Assembly (NCBI RefSeq): GCF_000379725.1
Contig: NZ_KB903664.1
Span: 62,154-126,153, forward strand
DNA: 64,000 nt
Direction of reading: 5' to 3'
Source: Cytophaga aurantiaca DSM 3654
Lineage (GTDB): Bacteria > Bacteroidota > Bacteroidia > Cytophagales > Cytophagaceae
Shown: in pieces, positions 26,860 through 61,923 of the stretch
Numbering within the stretch: position 1 is the first letter of the stretch
How the letters are laid out: the number at the start of each line of letters is the position of its first letter
Notes under the pieces: model-generated
Told to the model about the DNA's origin: nothing
The model's database searches: none
What the model saw: only the letters and a program-made list of their open reading frames with translations
Position numbers and translations under genes: made by a program

Positions 26860-28125
26860 ATGATATCAGATACTACGAATTCTACTGTTAAGAACGCCAT
26901 AACCACAACCGTGCTGGTCGCGGCATTGGGCTATTTTGTGGACGTTTATGACCTGGTGCTGTTTTTGATCATTGGGGTTAAAAGCATTAAGGGCATTGGT
27001 TTTCAGGAAAATATTATTGAAGACTTCCAGAAGTTACTGGATATTCAAATGATCGGAATGCTGCTTGGAGGGATCTTCTGGGGGATTCTGGGAGATAAAA
27101 AAGGCCGTTTATCTGTTCTTTTTGGATCCATTATCATGTATTCGTTGGCAAATATTGCAAACGGTTTTGTGGATGTATTTCAGGATAAAGATCAGGCATT
27201 TTTAGCTTATGGTATTTTAAGATTTATAGCAGGCTTTGGTTTAGCAGGCGAACTGGGTGCAGGCATCACACTGGTAAGTGAAGTAATGAGCAAAGAGAAG
27301 CGTGGTTATGGAACCATGATTGTTGCTTCAGTAGGTGTAACGGGGGCTATTGTTGCGGCTTTGGTGGGTAAGTTTATGTCCTGGCAGACGGCTTATTTTA
27401 TTGGCGGTGGTTTGGGTTTATCGCTGTTGTTGCTGCGAATAGGAGTGTTTGAATCAGGTATGTTTGAAAAATCAAAAGGAGAAAACGTACGTCATGGAAA
27501 TTTCTTTGATCTGTTTAAAAATAAAAATACCGCATGGAAATACCTCTACTGCATTGTTATCGGATCGCCGATCTGGTTTGTCATTGGTGTGCTGATCGGT
27601 AGAGCGCCGGAGTTTGCTGCAGAAATGGGCATCAGCGGAACTGCTGTATTAGAGCGGGAGTACAGTATTATGTTTTGTTATACAGGTTTGGTTTTTGGAG
27701 ATATTGCAAGCGGTGCACTTTCCCAATTATTGAAAAGCAGAAAAAAAGCATTTTATATTTTTTATACATTCTGTATCATTCAGATCTTAATTTATCTGAA
27801 TCTGCATGATGTATCTGCAACCGTTTATTACATCATGATTACGCTGTTGGGCTTCTCTGTTGGCTTCTGGGCTATGTTTGTAACGGTGGCATCCGAACAG
27901 TTCGGTACCAATCTGCGTTCCACAACGGCTACTACTGTTCCGAATTTTGTAAGAGGTTCATTGGTGCCGATTGCAATGTTGTTTGATTATCTGAGTAGCC
28001 CTCAAAAATATAATAGCTTAACTACAGCAGCACTTATTGTTACAGGTTTATTATTCCTGATCTCCTTTGTCGCTATATACCGCTTACCTGAAACGTTTGG
28101 TAAGGATTTGGATTATGTGGAATAG
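26860..28125 (+). CDS. MFS transporter
   Basis: 421 residues from the ATG at 26860. The open frame extends 20 codons upstream, but those codons (MISMYLFCILRGF...) cover a likely promoter (TTTG at 26799-26802, 20 bases, TATTTTG). About twelve membrane spans. The loop GDKKGRLSVLFGS matches the MFS loop 2-3 signature, and GFGLAGELGAGITLVSE resembles sugar or organic acid porters. Mitochondrial or chloroplast-like signatures are absent. Substrate unknown. It is the only plus-strand gene between two minus-strand blocks. Confidence 0.87.
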   Translation: MISDTTNSTVKNAITTTVLVAALGYFVDVYDLVLFLIIGVKSIKGIGFQENIIEDFQKLLDIQMIGMLLGGIFWGILGDKKGRLSVLFGSIIMYSLANIANGFVDVFQDKDQAFLAYGILRFIAGFGLAGELGAGITLVSEVMSKEKRGYGTMIVASVGVTGAIVAALVGKFMSWQTAYFIGGGLGLSLLLLRIGVFESGMFEKSKGENVRHGNFFDLFKNKNTAWKYLYCIVIGSPIWFVIGVLIGRAPEFAAEMGISGTAVLEREYSIMFCYTGLVFGDIASGALSQLLKSRKKAFYIFYTFCIIQILIYLNLHDVSATVYYIMITLLGFSVGFWAMFVTVASEQFGTNLRSTTATTVPNFVRGSLVPIAMLFDYLSSPQKYNSLTTAALIVTGLLFLISFVAIYRLPETFGKDLDYVE

Positions 28126-28353
28126 TTTCCAGTTACTAGGTACTAGTTACTAGACGAAAGAACAGTACAGAATAACAAATGAGTTACTAGGCACTAGCTT
28201 CCAGTTGCTAGACAAAAGAAAGCATAGAGTAAAAGTAATAGCAAACTAAAAACTATATTATTCTGAATATTATATATTATAAACAAGAAAGTCCCGCCAA
28301 TTAGCAGGACTTTCTTGTTTCATTGTCTAGAAGCTAGTACCTGGTAACTAGAA
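28125..28353. repeat. Inverted pair of heptamer arrays around the MFS/ahpC convergent spacer
   Basis: Arrays with a 7-base period: GTTACTA/GGTACTA units at 28125-28154 and again at 28181-28212 (GTTACTA, GGCACTA, GCTTCCA, GTTGCTA), and the reverse orientation (AGAAGCT, AGTACCT, GGTAACT, AGAAACT) at 28324-28353. The first and last arrays pair over about 30 bases with four mismatches, enclosing the terminator. The same word family recurs at 51834-51930. Confidence 0.8.
28281..28320 (-). terminator. Bidirectional terminator between the MFS gene and ahpC
   Basis: Arms 28281-28294 and 28307-28320 pair perfectly over 14 bases around a 12-base loop. A- and T-rich ends let it serve both convergent genes. 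It is nested inside the heptamer-array inverted repeat. Confidence 0.8.
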
Positions 28354-28354
28354 A

Positions 28355-28984
28355 CTAATTCTTTGCTAAGTAATCAGAAACACCTTCAACAGTTGCTTTC
28401 ATTGCTTCTTTGCCTTCGCCCCAGTTAGCAGGACAAACTTCGCCGAATTTCTCAACATGTTGTAAAGCTTCAACCATACGCAACGTCTCATCAATGTTAC
28501 GACCCAATGGGAAGTCATTTACTGTTTCATGACGAACAATACCTTCTTTATCGATTAAGAATGTTCCTCTGTATGCGATCGGAGCACCAATGAAGATCAT
28601 TAGTCCGTTGTCATCAACATCAAAATGACCACCTAATACACCGTAGTTTGTTGAGATAGTTTTTGCTGTATCAGCTACAAGTGGATATTTTACACCTTGT
28701 ATGCCGCCTTTGTTTTTCGGCATAGACAACCATGCAACGTGAGAGTTTTCCGTATCTGTAGAACAACCTACAACTACAGTATCTTTTGCTTCAAATGCAG
28801 CAAGTTTTTCCTGGAAAGCTAAAATTTCAGTCGGACAAACAAATGTGAAATCTTTTGGATAGAAATAAAACACAACATATTTTTTGCCTAAATACTGATC
28901 CAATGAAAATTCTTCAACAACTTCGTATCCGTTTAATACAGCCGGCGCAACAAATGACGGAGCTTTTTTTCCTACTAATGACAT
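28355..28984 (-). CDS. 2-Cys peroxiredoxin (AhpC/Prx1 type)
   Basis: 209 residues. The peroxidatic cysteine is C50 in DFTFVCPTEI and the resolving cysteine C184 in GEVCPANW. The GGHF segment stands where GGLG is found in eukaryotic overoxidation-sensitive enzymes. It reduces hydrogen peroxide and organic peroxides in the cytoplasm. It lies 34 bases behind a Fur-family gene on the same strand, consistent with peroxide-linked control. Whether AhpF or thioredoxin recycles it is not shown here. Confidence 0.95.
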   Translation of the reverse strand: MSLVGKKAPSFVAPAVLNGYEVVEEFSLDQYLGKKYVVFYFYPKDFTFVCPTEILAFQEKLAAFEAKDTVVVGCSTDTENSHVAWLSMPKNKGGIQGVKYPLVADTAKTISTNYGVLGGHFDVDDNGLMIFIGAPIAYRGTFLIDKEGIVRHETVNDFPLGRNIDETLRMVEALQHVEKFGEVCPANWGEGKEAMKATVEGVSDYLAKN

Positions 28985-37751: not shown

Positions 37752-37781
37752 CTGATAACTGACAACTGACAACTGACAACT
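37752..37781 (+). repeat. Heptamer array upstream of menG
   Basis: CTGATAA then CTGACAA three times, an exact 7-base period, ending six bases before a TACCTTTG promoter word. Confidence 0.85.
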
Positions 37782-45723: not shown

Positions 45724-46179
45724 ATGCCAAATACATTTTCACAAATTTACATTCAAGTTGTTTTTGCAGTTAAAGGCCGTGAGTGCCAAGTTCAACATTC
45801 ATGGGAGGAAAAATTATATAAATATATTGCGGGTGTTGTTCAAAATCACAAACTGATTGCAATAAATGGCATGCCGGATCATATTCATTTTTTGATAGGA
45901 ATGAAACCTACCTGTTGTTTATCAGATTTAATTAGAGAGATAAAAAAAGCTTCTAACGCCTATATTAAAGATAATAAATTATCGCCATATAAATTTCAAT
46001 GGCAGGAAGGTTTTGGTGCATTTTCATATAGTCATTCATCTTTAGATAACGTGATTCATTATATTATGAATCAAAAACAACATCATACGAATAAGACATT
46101 TAAACAAGAGTATGAAGAATTTCTTACTAAGTTTAACATAGAATTTAAATCTGAATATCTTTTTGAATGGTATGAATAA
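45724..46179 (+). mobile_element. IS200/IS605-type (HUH/Y1) transposase, RAYT-like, intact
   Basis: 151 residues. The HUH motif is H53-I-H55 in GMPDHIHFLIG, and the catalytic tyrosine is probably Y113 with Q117 (YIMNQ), spacing typical of TnpA. Single-domain, no TnpB gene adjacent. It is bracketed by GACCCC-type palindromes (45602-45678 on the left, 46190-46204 and 46343-46418 on the right), as for REP-associated tyrosine transposases or single-strand IS200 ends. It looks full-length and active: no stop or frameshift. It inserts between a membrane protein gene and rnhA. Confidence 0.88.
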
Positions 46180-47883: not shown

Positions 47884-48924
47884 TCAAATCGCTAACAACA
47901 GCTCCTTGAAATCTTCATCCGTATGTGCAGGAAAGTTTGCAATGCGTATGGTATTTTCTTTCCAGATGCCGTATCCGCTGCCGATAATAATACCTTGTTC
48001 TTTTAAGGATTTTTTTATTTGCTTGATATAGTCTTCATCACCTTTCAATGTTAGCACTGTAGGGGACTGTACCTCTTTTTCAATGATCAAAGGGTTTAAG
48101 GATGCATGCGCTGAAAAATGATTGTATAAATAATCCATTCGTTCTTTTAATTGTAAAAACTGAATGCTGTTTATTTCTTTTAATCGTTCAGATAATAAAT
48201 AGATGCCTAAAATATTAGGTGTATGTGTTGTCTGAAAAGTAGAACCATTTTCTACAATACGTTTTAATGAATTGTACTGGATGTCTTTGCTTCTGTGTTC
48301 AATGGTATGTTGCGCTTGAGGCGATAAAATAAGTACACCTAATCCGGATGGCAAACCAAAACATTTTTGTACAGATGCAAACCAGATATCGGCATGTTCC
48401 CATTTAACAGCTATGCCCGCTAATGCTGAAGTCGCATCCACAGCAATTAAGCTATCCGCAAATGTTTCACGGATATCTGACTGAATATGGTGCGATAAAA
48501 ATGTTCCGTTAGAAGTTTCTGCAAGTGTTGTACAAACGATTTCTGCAGAAATAGAATCATCAATAGTCTGTACATTAAGTTCTGAATGAATATCAAAAAC
48601 AACAGATTCATGTTCAATAGACAATTGCTTCGAAACCTCCATCCATTTTTTTCCAAACGATCCATTATAAATATGTAAAAAGGAACGATTGGGAAATGAT
48701 TGTGCAAGGATCGTCCAGCACTCTGTTGCAGATGAAGTAAAATATACGCGATAACCTTTAGGCAGGTCATAATATGTTTCAAATCTTTCCTGTACCTGCT
48801 TGTACAGCTCCATGAATTCAATGCTTCTGTGATTCATGCTGAGTATACCGGACGCAATGGCTTCCTGCACATGTATATTTGCGTGTGCGTGCAATTTGGA
48901 TGGACCGGGATAGAAATTTAACAT
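47884..48924 (-). CDS. Class V aminotransferase, SerC-like
   Basis: 346 residues. PLP lysine K187 in SVQKCFGLP, the typical N-terminus FYPGPSKL and the acidic VDATSALAG stretch. The family is that of phosphoserine aminotransferase and related enzymes. It lies two bases before aroQ on the same strand, both amino acid biosynthesis genes. SerC is likely, but without the phosphate-binding residues being checked by alignment other class V activities are possible. Confidence 0.8.
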   Translation of the reverse strand: MLNFYPGPSKLHAHANIHVQEAIASGILSMNHRSIEFMELYKQVQERFETYYDLPKGYRVYFTSSATECWTILAQSFPNRSFLHIYNGSFGKKWMEVSKQLSIEHESVVFDIHSELNVQTIDDSISAEIVCTTLAETSNGTFLSHHIQSDIRETFADSLIAVDATSALAGIAVKWEHADIWFASVQKCFGLPSGLGVLILSPQAQHTIEHRSKDIQYNSLKRIVENGSTFQTTHTPNILGIYLLSERLKEINSIQFLQLKERMDYLYNHFSAHASLNPLIIEKEVQSPTVLTLKGDEDYIKQIKKSLKEQGIIIGSGYGIWKENTIRIANFPAHTDEDFKELLLAI

Positions 48925-48925
48925 A

Positions 48926-49345
48926 TTATTTACTTAGCAAATGATGAACAGCTAATGCGTAACTTTTCATACCGAAACCTGTAATGATTCCTGCACAGTT
49001 TTTTGCCATCAGACTTTTGTGTCTGTATTCTTCGCGGGCATATACATTTGAAATATGAACTTCAATAACGGGTGTTTTAATTCCCGCTACTGCATCAGCA
49101 ATTGCAATAGAGGTATGCGTGTATGCACCGGCATTAAATACAATGCCATCGTAGTCAAAACCAACTTCGTGCAGCTTGTTTACCAGTTCACCTTCAACAT
49201 TCGACTGAAAATACGTGAATGTTACAGATGGATGAAGTTGTTTCAATTCATTAAAAATGTCTTCAGCAGATGCTGAGCCATAGATACCCGGTTCGCGTTT
49301 GCCAAGCAGGTTCAGATTAGGACCGTTGAGAATGAGTATTTTCAT
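48926..49345 (-). CDS. aroQ: 3-dehydroquinate dehydratase, type II
   Basis: 139 residues. N-terminus ILILNGPNLNLLGKREPGIYG, the catalytic Tyr in GIYG, NAGAYTHTSIAIADA and EVHISNVYAREEYRHKS. A dodecameric shikimate pathway enzyme. It is upstream of the SerC-like gene and separated from divergent xerD by a heptamer-array spacer. Confidence 0.96.
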   Translation of the reverse strand: MKILILNGPNLNLLGKREPGIYGSASAEDIFNELKQLHPSVTFTYFQSNVEGELVNKLHEVGFDYDGIVFNAGAYTHTSIAIADAVAGIKTPVIEVHISNVYAREEYRHKSLMAKNCAGIITGFGMKSYALAVHHLLSK

Positions 49346-49353
49346 AAAGTAAA

Positions 49354-49508
49354 TATAAGTTATAAGTTTTATGTTTTAAGTTCTAAGAGTGTATCTATTT
49401 AACTTTTTATGAAAAATAGTTTTGGGTGTATTAAAACCATTGAAATTATAATCAAATTTTATTTGTGGCGTTTTCTTAAAACTTAAAACTTAAAACGTAT
49501 AACTTACA
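49354..49508. repeat. Inverted pair of five-unit heptamer arrays between aroQ and xerD
   Basis: Left array 49354-49388: TATAAGT, TATAAGT, TTTATGT, TTTAAGT, TCTAAGA. Right array 49474-49508: TCTTAAA, ACTTAAA, ACTTAAA, ACGTATA, ACTTACA. Read in reverse complement they match unit by unit with one mismatch in four of the five units (31 of 35 bases). The 85 bases between are AT-rich. Confidence 0.85.
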
Positions 49509-49510
49509 CC

Positions 49511-50410
49511 ATGAATTGGAAGATCCTGATACGGCAGTTTAGAGATTATTTAAAAATTGAACGCTCTTTGTCGGGTAATTCAGTCGAAGCGTACGAGCAC
49601 GATATTGTAAAGTTTATGCAATATCTGGAATTGACAGAACCTTCAATCGGGCCTATGCAGGTAAAGGGAAAGCATATTCAGCAATTTTTAGAATACATTA
49701 CCGAACTGGGTATGTCCGCTTATTCGCAGGCTCGTATTTTATCCGGTATAAAATCGTTCTTCCGTTTTTTACTCATGGAAGAAATCCGTGATGAAGATCC
49801 ATCGTCGTTGATTGATAGTCCAAAACTAGGACGCAAGCTTCCGGATACCCTTTCGTTTCCTGAAATCGAACAGTTGTTGCAGGCTATTGATCAATCAAAA
49901 CCGGAAGGCGTCCGCAACAGAGCGATGCTTGAAACCCTTTACAGTTGTGGCTTACGTGTTACAGAGCTGGTAGAATTGAAAATTTCGAATTTGTTTTTCG
50001 AAGATGGATTTATAAAAGTTCTTGGGAAAGGGAATAAAGAACGTTTGGTGCCAATCGGCAGAGAAGCCAGAAAATTTATTACGATTTACAAAAACGAAAT
50101 ACGCTGTCATCTGGACATTGTAAAAGGTGCCGAAAATTATGTTTTTTTAAATCGAAGAGGAAATAAATTGACCCGCGTGATGGTCTTTACGATCATTAAA
50201 GATCTGGTCACGAAAATAGGTTTAAATAAAACCGTCAGTCCGCACACTTTTCGCCATTCCTTCGCGACACATTTAATTGAAGGCGGTGCAGATTTACGGG
50301 CCGTTCAGGATATGCTTGGTCACGAATCCATTACAACTACAGAAATATATACCCATCTGGATCGGGATTATTTAAAGCAGATCATTAAGGATTTCCATCC
50401 GAGATCGTAG
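49511..50410 (+). CDS. xerD: Site-specific tyrosine recombinase XerD/XerC
   Basis: 299 residues. N-terminal SAM-like DNA-binding domain (1-105). Catalytic residues R149 (GLRVTELVEL), K173 (GKGNK), H245, R248 (HTFRHS), H271 and nucleophile Y280 (TTTEIYTH). It resolves chromosome dimers at dif with its partner and FtsK, which is encoded 1.5 kb away. In Bacteroidetes a single Xer is common, so the letter is tentative. Confidence 0.94.
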   Translation: MNWKILIRQFRDYLKIERSLSGNSVEAYEHDIVKFMQYLELTEPSIGPMQVKGKHIQQFLEYITELGMSAYSQARILSGIKSFFRFLLMEEIRDEDPSSLIDSPKLGRKLPDTLSFPEIEQLLQAIDQSKPEGVRNRAMLETLYSCGLRVTELVELKISNLFFEDGFIKVLGKGNKERLVPIGREARKFITIYKNEIRCHLDIVKGAENYVFLNRRGNKLTRVMVFTIIKDLVTKIGLNKTVSPHTFRHSFATHLIEGGADLRAVQDMLGHESITTTEIYTHLDRDYLKQIIKDFHPRS

Positions 50411-50423
50411 GATTGATGTTTTC

Positions 50424-50532
50424 TAGGGGCGATGCCCCTAGTTCGAATATTTCAGGCTTACAGCCTAAGTATCTCATGTGAACCGATAAGCCTGAAAGGC
50501 TTAGATAGCATAGCTTGGGGCATCGCCCCAAG
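50424..50532. repeat. BIME-like paired hairpins between xerD and pyrD
   Basis: Outer hairpins TAGGGGCGATGCCCCTA (50424-50440) and CTTGGGGCATCGCCCCAAG (50514-50532) are inverted copies of one another. Inner hairpins AGGCTTACAGCCT and AAGCCTGAAAGGCTT are also paired in inverted order. Confidence 0.8.
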
Positions 50533-50803: not shown

Positions 50804-51841
50804 TTGTATAAACTCCTAATAAAACCAATTTTGTTCTGTTTCACCCCGGAAACAGCACATCATATAACGTTTGCATTCATTAAGTTCCTATTTAAAATCC
50901 CTGGTGTAAGCAGTGTTTTCAGACTGATCTATTCTGTTGAAGATAAGCGTTTGGAACGTACGGTTTTTGGAATCACATTTCCCAACCCGGTTGGTTTGGC
51001 AGCAGGGTTTGATAAAGATGCGAAGATTGTAGATGAGTTTTCAGTACTGGGCTTTGGCTTTATTGAAATCGGTACGGTTACACCTGTCCCACAGGCAGGA
51101 AATGATAAGCCAAGATTATTCCGTTTGCCTCAGGACGAAGCTGTCATAAACCGAATGGGCTTCAATAATGGCGGGATGAAAGAGATTGCGGCACGTTTGC
51201 GCAAAAGAAAATCGAAGGTATTGATCGGTGGAAACATTGGTAAAAATAAGATCACACCAAACGAAGAAGCATTGAACGATTACATCAAAGCGTTTAATGA
51301 ATTATTTGATTGTGTAGATTATTTTGTTGTGAATGTAAGCTCTCCAAATACACCCGGACTTAGAGCTTTGCAGGAAAAAGAACCGCTGAAGAAGATCCTG
51401 AACAGTCTGCAGGAGGTGAATAATCAAAAAGCAGTTCCCAAACCTATTTTATTGAAAATTGCTCCGGATCTGACCAATGAGCAATTAGATGATATTGTTG
51501 AAATCATTACCGAAACGAAACTTGCGGGTATCATTGCTACCAATACAACCATATCCAGAGATGGGTTGGTAACTGAGAAAGAAAACGTGGAAGCGATCGG
51601 AATGGGAGGCTTAAGCGGCAGACCATTAGCCGTAAGGTCTACAGAAGTTATTCGCTATCTGGTAAAAAAATCGAATGGAACCATTCCGGTTATTGGCGTG
51701 GGTGGAATACATTCACCTCAGGATGCTTTAGATAAGCTGGATGCAGGAGCTTCCCTGATCCAATTGTATTCAGGGTTTATTTATGAAGGACCGGCTTTGG
51801 TAGGAGCAATTAATAAAGCGATTTTGAAGAAAAGTTTCTAG
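50804..51841 (+). CDS. pyrD: Dihydroorotate dehydrogenase (quinone), class 2
   Basis: 345 residues from a TTG start. The N-terminus [20 protein letters not shown] is the membrane-associating helix of class 2 enzymes, so TTG is the right start. [20 protein letters not shown]-like [21 protein letters not shown] (the catalytic Ser of the class) and GGIHS near the end fit. It passes electrons from dihydroorotate to menaquinone. pyrF is encoded 3.4 kb downstream. Confidence 0.95.
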
Positions 51842-51930
51842 TTGCCAGGTACTAGTTTCTAGACGTTGAAAATTGCAAATAATGAGAATTCTTTTGTCTA
51901 GTAACTAGAAGCTAGAAACTGGTAACTAAC
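51834..51930. repeat. Inverted pair of heptamer arrays upstream of ftsK
   Basis: Left 51834-51864 and right 51896-51930, with CTAGNAA/TTNCTAG units. The left array includes the pyrD stop codon. Same word family as at 28125-28353, 23.7 kb away. Confidence 0.8.
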
Positions 51931-61111: not shown

Positions 61112-61756
61112 ATGGAAAAGAAAGATGCAGTAATTATTTTCGGTGCTTCTTCATTAGGAAAAGCAGCTTTGGAAATTTTTGAAAGCAATGGCATGGTAGC
61201 GTACGGCTTCCTGGATGACACAAAAGCATTACACGGTACACAGATAAATGATGTTACGGTATTAGGCTCAACAGACGAAGATGCCTATTTGAAACTGATT
61301 GGAACTAGCTGCGATGCATTCATTGCAAGCGACGAGCCTAAGCTGCGTGAAGGTTTAACGAAGATGCTTCATGAACGCAGACAAACGCAGGCTGTAAATG
61401 CGATTCATTCAACCGCTTCTGTTTCTCATTCTGCTTCTATCGGTCACGGTAATTTTATTAATGGAGCTGTTGTAATTGGTGCAAATGCAGAAGTGGGCAG
61501 CCACTGTTTGATACACACAGGCGCGATCATTGATTTTGAAGCCGTAGTTGAAGATTTCGTTCAGATTGGTGCGGGTGCTATTATTAACGCAGGTGCGAAG
61601 ATCGAAAAAGGTGCATTTATCGGCACCGGTGCTGTGATTATCGGAGGTATTGTCATTGGTAAAAATGCCCGTGTAGGTGCAGGTTCTGTAGTAATTGCCC
61701 CGGTGAAAGATAAAGAAACGGTGTTCGGTAATCCGGCACAACCGATGAAAGCTTAA
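61112..61756 (+). CDS. Sugar O-/N-acyltransferase, NeuD/PglD family
   Basis: 214 residues. N-terminal Rossmann-like sugar nucleotide site VIIFGASSLGKAALEIFESNG, then a left-handed beta helix of hexapeptide repeats from about 115 to 205 (SIGHGNFINGAVVIGANAEV, GAGAIINAGAKIEKGAFIGTGA). The family acetylates amino-sugar nucleotides in glycan or sialic acid pathways. No other glycan genes adjoin it. Followed by a terminator. Confidence 0.85.
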   Translation: MEKKDAVIIFGASSLGKAALEIFESNGMVAYGFLDDTKALHGTQINDVTVLGSTDEDAYLKLIGTSCDAFIASDEPKLREGLTKMLHERRQTQAVNAIHSTASVSHSASIGHGNFINGAVVIGANAEVGSHCLIHTGAIIDFEAVVEDFVQIGAGAIINAGAKIEKGAFIGTGAVIIGGIVIGKNARVGAGSVVIAPVKDKETVFGNPAQPMKA

Positions 61757-61916
61757 TTATAAATTATGAGTTATGAATTATGAATAAAGTGAATTCATAA
61801 TTTTATATAGTAAAAGAACAGTTAAATGTAAGTTTGACTGTTCTTTTTTTGCCCATTTTGGACTGAATCACTGTATCTACCCATAATTTATCATTCATAA
61901 TTCATAATTTATAATT
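61755..61916. repeat. Inverted pair of heptamer arrays between the acyltransferase gene and trhO
   Basis: Left 61755-61789: AATTATA, AATTATG, AGTTATG, AATTATG, AATAAAG. Right 61882-61916: CATAATT, TATCATT, CATAATT, CATAATT, TATAATT. The two are near inverse complements and enclose the terminator at 61812-61850. Confidence 0.85.
61812..61850 (+). terminator. Terminator of the acyltransferase gene
   Basis: AAAAGAACAGT (61812-61822) pairs with ACTGTTCTTTT (61837-61847) and is followed by a T-run. The loop is 14 bases. Confidence 0.85.
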
Positions 61917-61923
61917 AATTTTG
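61916..61923 (+). promoter_or_regulatory. Promoter -7 word of trhO
   Basis: TAATTTTG matches TAnnTTTG, 38 bases before the ATG at 61962. The right heptamer array runs straight into it. Confidence 0.5.

Follow-up and report, generated by a model that had tools for sequence, protein, structure and literature searches.

Facing heptamer arrays between aroQ and xerD of Cytophaga aurantiaca are members of a dispersed array family at spacer borders

The spacer between the genes aroQ and xerD of Cytophaga aurantiaca DSM 3654 carries two arrays of 7-base units that mirror each other, which raises the question of whether the pair is a structure specific to these two genes. We examined this pair within the window, that is, the whole stretch of 64,000 nt that was analyzed, to which all coordinates refer unless a contig is named. 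The left array (49354..49388, + strand) consists of five units of the form A-N-G-T-[TA]-[TAC]-T with its AAGT side facing aroQ, and the right array (49474..49508, – strand) is of the same class and inverted to it, with its AAGT side facing xerD. Direct comparison of the reverse complements confirmed that each arm contains five 7-base units and that 31 of 35 bases are complementary, as described in the first-pass annotation. A repeat search delimited the arms as 33 nt matching at 91% (49356-49388 and 49474-49506, 85 nt apart), and TRF reported a period of 7 with 4.9 and 4.6 copies. The flanking genes are divergent, as had also been noted, and encode a class II 3-dehydroquinase (aroQ, 48926..49345, – strand) and a XerD-like tyrosine recombinase (49511..50410, + strand). 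The –7 element of Bacteroidota promoters has the consensus TAnnTTTG, and on this basis we take TATATTTA at 49350..49357 (– strand; TATATTTG in both congeneric genomes) to be a possible –7 element of aroQ; the left array begins directly against it.

We searched for period-7 segments in the window, in its genome of origin (G000) and in two congeneric Cytophaga genomes (G001 and G002). Within the window, six segments reached a score of 13 at period 7, and none did so at periods 2-6 or 8-11. A 388-kb sample of the own genome contained 13 such segments at period 7 versus none in one dinucleotide shuffle, with no more than one at every other period from 4 to 11, and 400 kb of G002 contained six versus none in the shuffled sequence, with zero to two at periods 4-6 and 8-11; both samples were picked regardless of arrays, but include the contig of the window and its counterpart. 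In 159 kb of G001, period 7 was not special (three segments, and three at period 6). Inverted repeats of any kind with a score of at least 15 were present in 42 of the 188 intergenic regions of the own-genome sample and in none of 188 shuffled regions. The same 388 kb contained 17 arrays of the class with CTAG units and none after shuffling; the corresponding counts for AAGTTTT, the class of the aroQ-xerD arms, were two and zero.

The arms proved to have many relatives. Several unit classes coexist in the own genome, which carries dozens of arrays, and CTAGNNNCTAGNNNCTAG occurs at 93 sites in the whole genome, compared with none for the reversed control. When 40 of 130 candidate matches to the aroQ-xerD spacer were scored, at least 52 matches elsewhere in the own genome were obtained, each covering an arm; none of these was confined to the inner DNA (49389..49473), of which the scored own-genome matches included no second copy. 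Elsewhere in the window, facing CTAG-class arrays bracket the spacer at 28123..28357 (arms 28123-28155 and 28325-28357), and another such pair lies at 51833..51927 (arms 51833-51864 and 51896-51927), between two genes whose translations read as pyrD and an FtsK-like protein; the first of these genes takes its stop codon from the left array. Facing ATTATGA-class arrays occupy 61753..61918 between two co-oriented genes, and an unpaired CTGACAA-class array (37752..37781, – strand) lies upstream of a + strand gene. Pure arrays reach up to 29 copies. Wherever CTAG and GTAC arrays were both visible in the spacers examined, the former lay outside the latter, forming nested layers.

We retrieved 20 further loci of the AAGTTTT class, hand-picked from the match list, seven of which had already been seen there as facing (eight pairs, nothing else). 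Together with the window, these loci contained 45 arrays that formed 19 facing pairs, two and one neighbors in the same direction and none pointing apart. The tendency was maintained when only the window and the 13 loci not previously seen as pairs were counted (11 facing, two and one in the same direction, none apart). The possibility, raised in the first-pass annotation, that the pairing is a matter of chance was thus not borne out, since the 20 loci yielded 18 more facing pairs of this class (seven loci already visible as pairs).

We further determined how 162 arrays are oriented relative to genes, using a gene caller that keeps open-ended ORFs; three classes were covered (AAGTTTT and CTAG in G000, and GTAC in G001 and G002). 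The CTAG and GTAC loci were among the matches listed in exact-pattern searches, and the GTAC pattern, for which the own genome was not used, comprised three units because the two-unit form was too loose (nine real versus five shuffled matches). A total of 135 arrays turned the same end (the AAGT, TAG or AGT side, depending on the class) toward a gene no more than 60 nt away, whereas six were reversed; 15 were farther from a gene and six were inside ORFs. Of the 135 gene-facing arrays, 3΄ ends accounted for 81 and 5΄ ends for 54, and the polarity rule therefore concerns the border of the spacer rather than the direction of transcription. Since both kinds of gene end are occupied, the presence of xerD beside the pair is incidental. 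Neighboring arrays separated by 11-400 nt faced each other in 56 of 69 cases and never pointed apart; in the CTAG class, 22 were facing (remaining tallies 3, 4 or 5, 3, a few arrays being nearly palindromic). In facing pairs, the median distance from arm to gene was 6-10 nt per class, and 77 of the 106 distances were 25 nt or less. All four gene-strand arrangements occurred around arrays, and the frequency of convergent spacers was unremarkable (9/41 with arrays versus 32/167, P = 0.67).

Arrays that abut gene ends supply the stop codon in the CTAG and AAGTTTT classes. Among gene 3΄ ends within 12 nt of an array, the stop codon was TAG in 30 of 32 cases for CTAG arrays and TAA in 15 of 16 for AAGTTTT arrays, against a background of 215 TAA, 52 TAG and 41 TGA in 308 genes of G000. 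The stop codons at GTAC arrays were mixed (five TAG and five TAA in G001, seven TAG and two TAA in G002). In ten genes that we examined, the protein length was equal across the compared species in six and differed by 1-8 residues in four, and the stop codon was TAG here in nine of the ten and TAA in five of six counterparts in G003, which represents the nearest other genus. The abutment on stop codons as well as on a likely promoter element indicates that the arrays extend to the edge of constrained sequence. A 7-base repeat array can contribute the stop codon of the gene that it adjoins.

Of the alternatives that we weighed, the first is that the two arms were selected to form an RNA or DNA hairpin, acting as a 3΄-end stabilizer, terminator, attenuator or cruciform. 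The aroQ-xerD spacer does fold well, and the earlier suggestion that a long hairpin is possible was upheld (DNA folding energy of –21.7 kcal/mol, z = –3.88, with 1 of 200 shuffles equally good); moreover, the RNA minimum free energy was below the shuffle mean in all nine facing pairs of the class that were tested. However, a selected hairpin would be expected to show partner-specific complementarity, which was absent from two classes. In the AAGTTTT class (19 pairs), the average match of an arm was 17.11 to its own partner and 17.54 to arms of other loci (P = 0.78), and in the CTAG class (22 pairs) these values were 16.77 and 17.27 (P = 0.85); a weak, non-significant excess for own partners was seen in the GTAC class (P = 0.15 for 10 pairs and P = 0.20 for five pairs), in which the arms of the pair at locus L308 are identical over 26 nt. 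As for the aroQ-xerD arms themselves, the left one fits its own partner best (25, compared with 14-23 for other loci), and for the right one, the left arm of locus L332 scores higher (27) than the own partner does (25). As arms from other loci match just as well as own partners do, the 31/35 mirror match reflects family resemblance and not selected pairing; it follows from likeness within the class combined with polarity. It also speaks against a selected hairpin that the polarity holds at 5΄ as well as 3΄ ends and that no Rfam match was found in 48900-50500. Terminator-like hairpins apart from the arms were present in a few spacers (such as L073, L085 and L120), the count of loosely defined ones being equal to that in shuffles (5/20 spacers versus 52/200). 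A hairpin can therefore form, yet it seems incidental, and we regard selection for it as unlikely. Near-perfect inverted repeats in spacers, in other words, need not be hairpins under selection. The proposal of a dedicated regulatory or recombination structure for aroQ and xerD is likewise not supported, since the arms are copies from a dispersed family and partner specificity is lacking class-wide: the arrays are real and beyond chance, yet they form no special aroQ-xerD structure.

To follow the arrays over time, we compared orthologous spacers. The divergent aroQ-xerD order was present in 22 of the 30 aroQ loci examined, the own locus included; of the other loci, seven (short ones) lacked xerD, and in G003 xerD lies on the opposite strand. 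The spacer measures 165 nt in the own genome and 238 nt in G001, where the units are the same; it measures 197 nt in G002, with AGTGTAA-like units that are less well mirrored, and 89 nt in G004, where TTGACAG units are mirrored. A further eight genomes of the family have a spacer of only 29-39 nt, which leaves no space for such arrays. Among 54 orthologous spacers of G000 and G002, arrays with a score of at least 9 were found in both genomes for five spacers, in G000 only for three (one of them doubtful by eye), in G002 only for none and in neither for 46 (Fisher's exact test, P = 1.8e-5, unchanged with a strand check), and no arrays were shared at the six control periods (5, 6 and 8-11). The sites are thus shared, whereas the unit class differs between the two genomes at aroQ/xerD, at pyrD/ftsK, at the 28.1-kb spacer and at other spacers. 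By an end-window measure, the arms of G000 were alike in six of seven spacers (z from 3.7 to 11.3) and the orthologous left spacer ends were not alike (z of 2 or less in 6/7). The orthologous right ends were alike in four of seven (z from 6.4 to 15.9), the promoter sequence being included there. In G002, the arms were clearly alike in one of seven spacers (z = 9.2), with a z of 2.6 in one more and of 1.0 at aroQ/xerD; those of pyrD/ftsK lie deeper than the end window and were found by a scan of the whole spacer (score of 28).

Outside the genus, no array with a score of at least 12 was found in 120 kb of G003, in 120 kb of G007 or in 40 kb of G037, and one was found in 120 kb of G033. Array spacers exceeded their G003 counterparts by a median of 125.5 nt (n = 6), compared with 20 nt for other spacers (n = 24, P = 0.017) and 56.5 nt for long spacers without arrays (n = 14, P = 0.046), in a comparison limited to conserved gene strands, which leaves out aroQ/xerD because of the strand of xerD in G003. 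One array spacer (61.8 kb) was longer in G003 (244 versus 181 nt). With respect to distribution, the GTAC-class pattern did not occur in the 16 genomes that represent other genera of the own family, and we observed 40 matches to it in G033 and 111 in G049 (family f16, another family of the order).

MITEs and REP elements are dispersed intergenic inverted repeats, and the arms could be regarded as the terminal inverted repeats of a MITE-like element inserted between genes. Facing arms with dispersed copies, nested layers with CTAG outside GTAC, and the shorter length in G003 of five among the six array spacers whose gene strands are conserved would all agree with insertion. The inner DNA, however, was unrelated among the 13 and 18 pairs compared, with mean scores near those of shuffles, although a single CTAG comparison reached 23.5, above the shuffle maximum of 20. 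Nor was a target-site duplication detected (own partners 2.11 versus shuffled partners 1.86 for AAGTTTT, and 1.00 versus 1.48 for CTAG). The Cytophaga arrays differ from MITEs and REP elements in these two respects and in their heptameric arms, which moreover fall into several classes. In addition, the stop codon is supplied by the array, which would not result from insertion downstream of an intact stop. We therefore consider a MITE-like origin decidedly unlikely.

It is still less probable that the arrays are boundary or insulator sites for a protein that steps along DNA in 7-bp units, with the unit class following the specificity of the protein. Sites that are conserved while their units change, and the strict polarity, could be expected of such a protein, but the coexistence of several unit classes within one genome and the occurrence of all four gene-strand arrangements argue against it. 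Chance likeness of AT-rich spacers can be dismissed, in spite of the AT-rich composition of the arms, because the period-7 excess, the array counts and the inverted-repeat counts all lie above those of shuffles.

Two further candidates were rejected. A repeat product of the DRT10 type captured in the genome, synthesized in a telomerase-like manner as described in the available part of a recent report (PMC12632851), would require a reverse transcriptase, and matches to RVT_1 did not correlate with arrays across six genomes: there was one match in each of G000, G001 and G033, none in G003, none in G002 (where arrays are present) and 11 in G007 (without an array in the 120 kb covered). The idea that units are excision footprints, composed of a palindromic 4-mer and three variable bases, fits CTAG and GTAC but fails for AAGTTTT, in which an A, a G, a T and the final T are fixed.

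The explanation that we favor, on comparison of sequences, is that the aroQ-xerD pair probably represents two members of a fast-evolving, dispersed family of heptamer arrays located at spacer borders, and that these arrays probably came about through DNA replication or repair and are tolerated. The appearance of an inverted pair arises because both borders carry arrays of the same class with gene-facing polarity. According to this explanation, the arrays would be generated during replication or repair at spacer DNA, slippage would set their copy number, and copying between loci would keep a unit class alike. Spreading would halt at coding or promoter sequence under selection, and the arrays would be tolerated rather than selected. 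Slippage is suggested by the pure arrays, the longest of which have 29 copies; on its own it accounts for neither the polarity nor the conserved sites. A process acting on DNA ends, or growth from the spacer toward the gene, would yield a fixed polarity.

Comparable arrays have been described in other bacteria. In the portions of the paper available to us, Rehm et al. (2015) describe, without assigning a function, heptameric repeats with GGGAATC or GGGGA(C/T)T units in Xanthomonas and Nostoc, mostly in arrays of four units; the two Xanthomonas genomes contain 70 and 75 facing ('convergent') pairs, and Nostoc has few (PMC4692102). According to that source, the Xanthomonas heptamers share with the Cytophaga arrays a 7-base unit with fixed and variable positions, dispersed copies, a location near ORFs, at whose 3΄ and 5΄ ends alike the polarity is fixed, facing pairs, and under-representation between divergent genes (here, 4/41 with arrays versus 45/167, P = 0.02); in two species, most of them are also found between corresponding genes while their length and sequence vary, and the sites are likewise conserved here. 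By contrast, as far as the same text goes, the Cytophaga arrays are AT-rich and lack G-runs, comprise several classes per genome that differ at orthologous sites, nest in layers, and nearly always furnish the stop codon in two classes. No run of three G was found in the unit columns, as a G-quadruplex-capable unit would require, and the Cytophaga arrays are accordingly an AT-rich, multi-class variant of the published Xanthomonas-type heptamers and not members of the G-quadruplex class. The published G-rich case invited explanations by G-quadruplexes; since polarity and facing pairs also occur with AT-rich units, the layout is independent of quadruplexes, which cannot be its general explanation.

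MacGregor (2015), in the part of the paper at our disposal, reported TAACTGA direct repeats in marine Beggiatoaceae, some Cyanobacteria and five Bacteroidetes, and recorded other heptamer arrays in two Bacteroidetes (PMC4679880). These repeats resemble the Cytophaga arrays as intergenic heptamer arrays near genes, but according to that description they have a single unit sequence, are mostly direct repeats that precede start codons, and include one inverted case. Membership of the Cytophaga arrays in the TAACTGA family was ruled out, because their units differ and both gene ends are occupied. As cited in these two papers (PMC4692102, PMC4679880), Mrazek (2007) found heptamers to be the most abundant long simple sequence repeats in most genomes; in contrast to what we observed in Cytophaga, polarity and facing pairs are not mentioned in those citations. 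A literature search, in which most subscription journals were outside the scope, returned no publication that describes facing arrays of AT-rich units in Cytophaga.

An oriented CTAG pattern was widespread, matching at least 119 stretches across the genomes of many phyla. Among the matches listed, the CTAG-type arrays elsewhere had CTAGAAA, CTAGAAC, CTAGCAC and other units, and facing pairs near genes were also seen in unrelated bacteria, for example Syntrophobacter, Vibrio and Brevundimonas. Neighboring arrays among these listed matches were facing in 18 cases (one of which is a Cytophaga record), pointed apart in four and had the same direction in eight. The polarity relative to genes was near even in these unrelated genomes (of 194 arrays, 69 toward, 57 away, 62 far and six inside, counted with an ORF finder that omitted genes running off the locus). 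In a spacer of a Firmicutes MAG (L250), a TTGACAG array on one side faces a CTAG array on the other, so that two different units form one facing arrangement.

A broader reading, which we put forward as a speculation of low probability, is that an undescribed general DNA process might lay polarized 7-base arrays from the spacer side against both gene borders. Spacers would be overwritten as far as the last sense codon, with even the stop codon taken over, and the process would operate in unrelated phyla and on units of any composition. The dominant unit of each lineage would then be replaced in the course of time while the sites stay put, as though it were copied from a changing template or made by an enzyme that acts on DNA ends. 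Because units turn over while their sites stay fixed and flush with stop codons, the bacterial excess of 7-base repeats becomes amenable to testing: at the same sites, congeners differ in unit class.

Several minor features accompany the arrays. The contigs G000:C4, G001:C18 and G001:C28 start inside heptamer arrays, and draft assemblies may therefore break there, so that arrays may be undercounted. Four loci of G002 (L139, L140, L151 and L153) contain GC-rich palindromes of the CGCCGCGGCG kind inside heptamer arrays, as though another small element inserted there; the combined unit of array and palindrome is itself repeated in L153. GC-rich mirrored elements (GGGGCGATGCCCC and GGCTGAAAGCC) recur in own-genome spacers (50425-50530 of the window and 191451-191813 of G000:C44), and one element of this kind sits within nested heptamer pairs. 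An IS200-type Y1 transposase (PF01797) is encoded at 45724-46179 of the window, and in G002, the ortholog of the 37.5-kb spacer contains, by eye, another apparent Y1-type gene flanked by palindromes.
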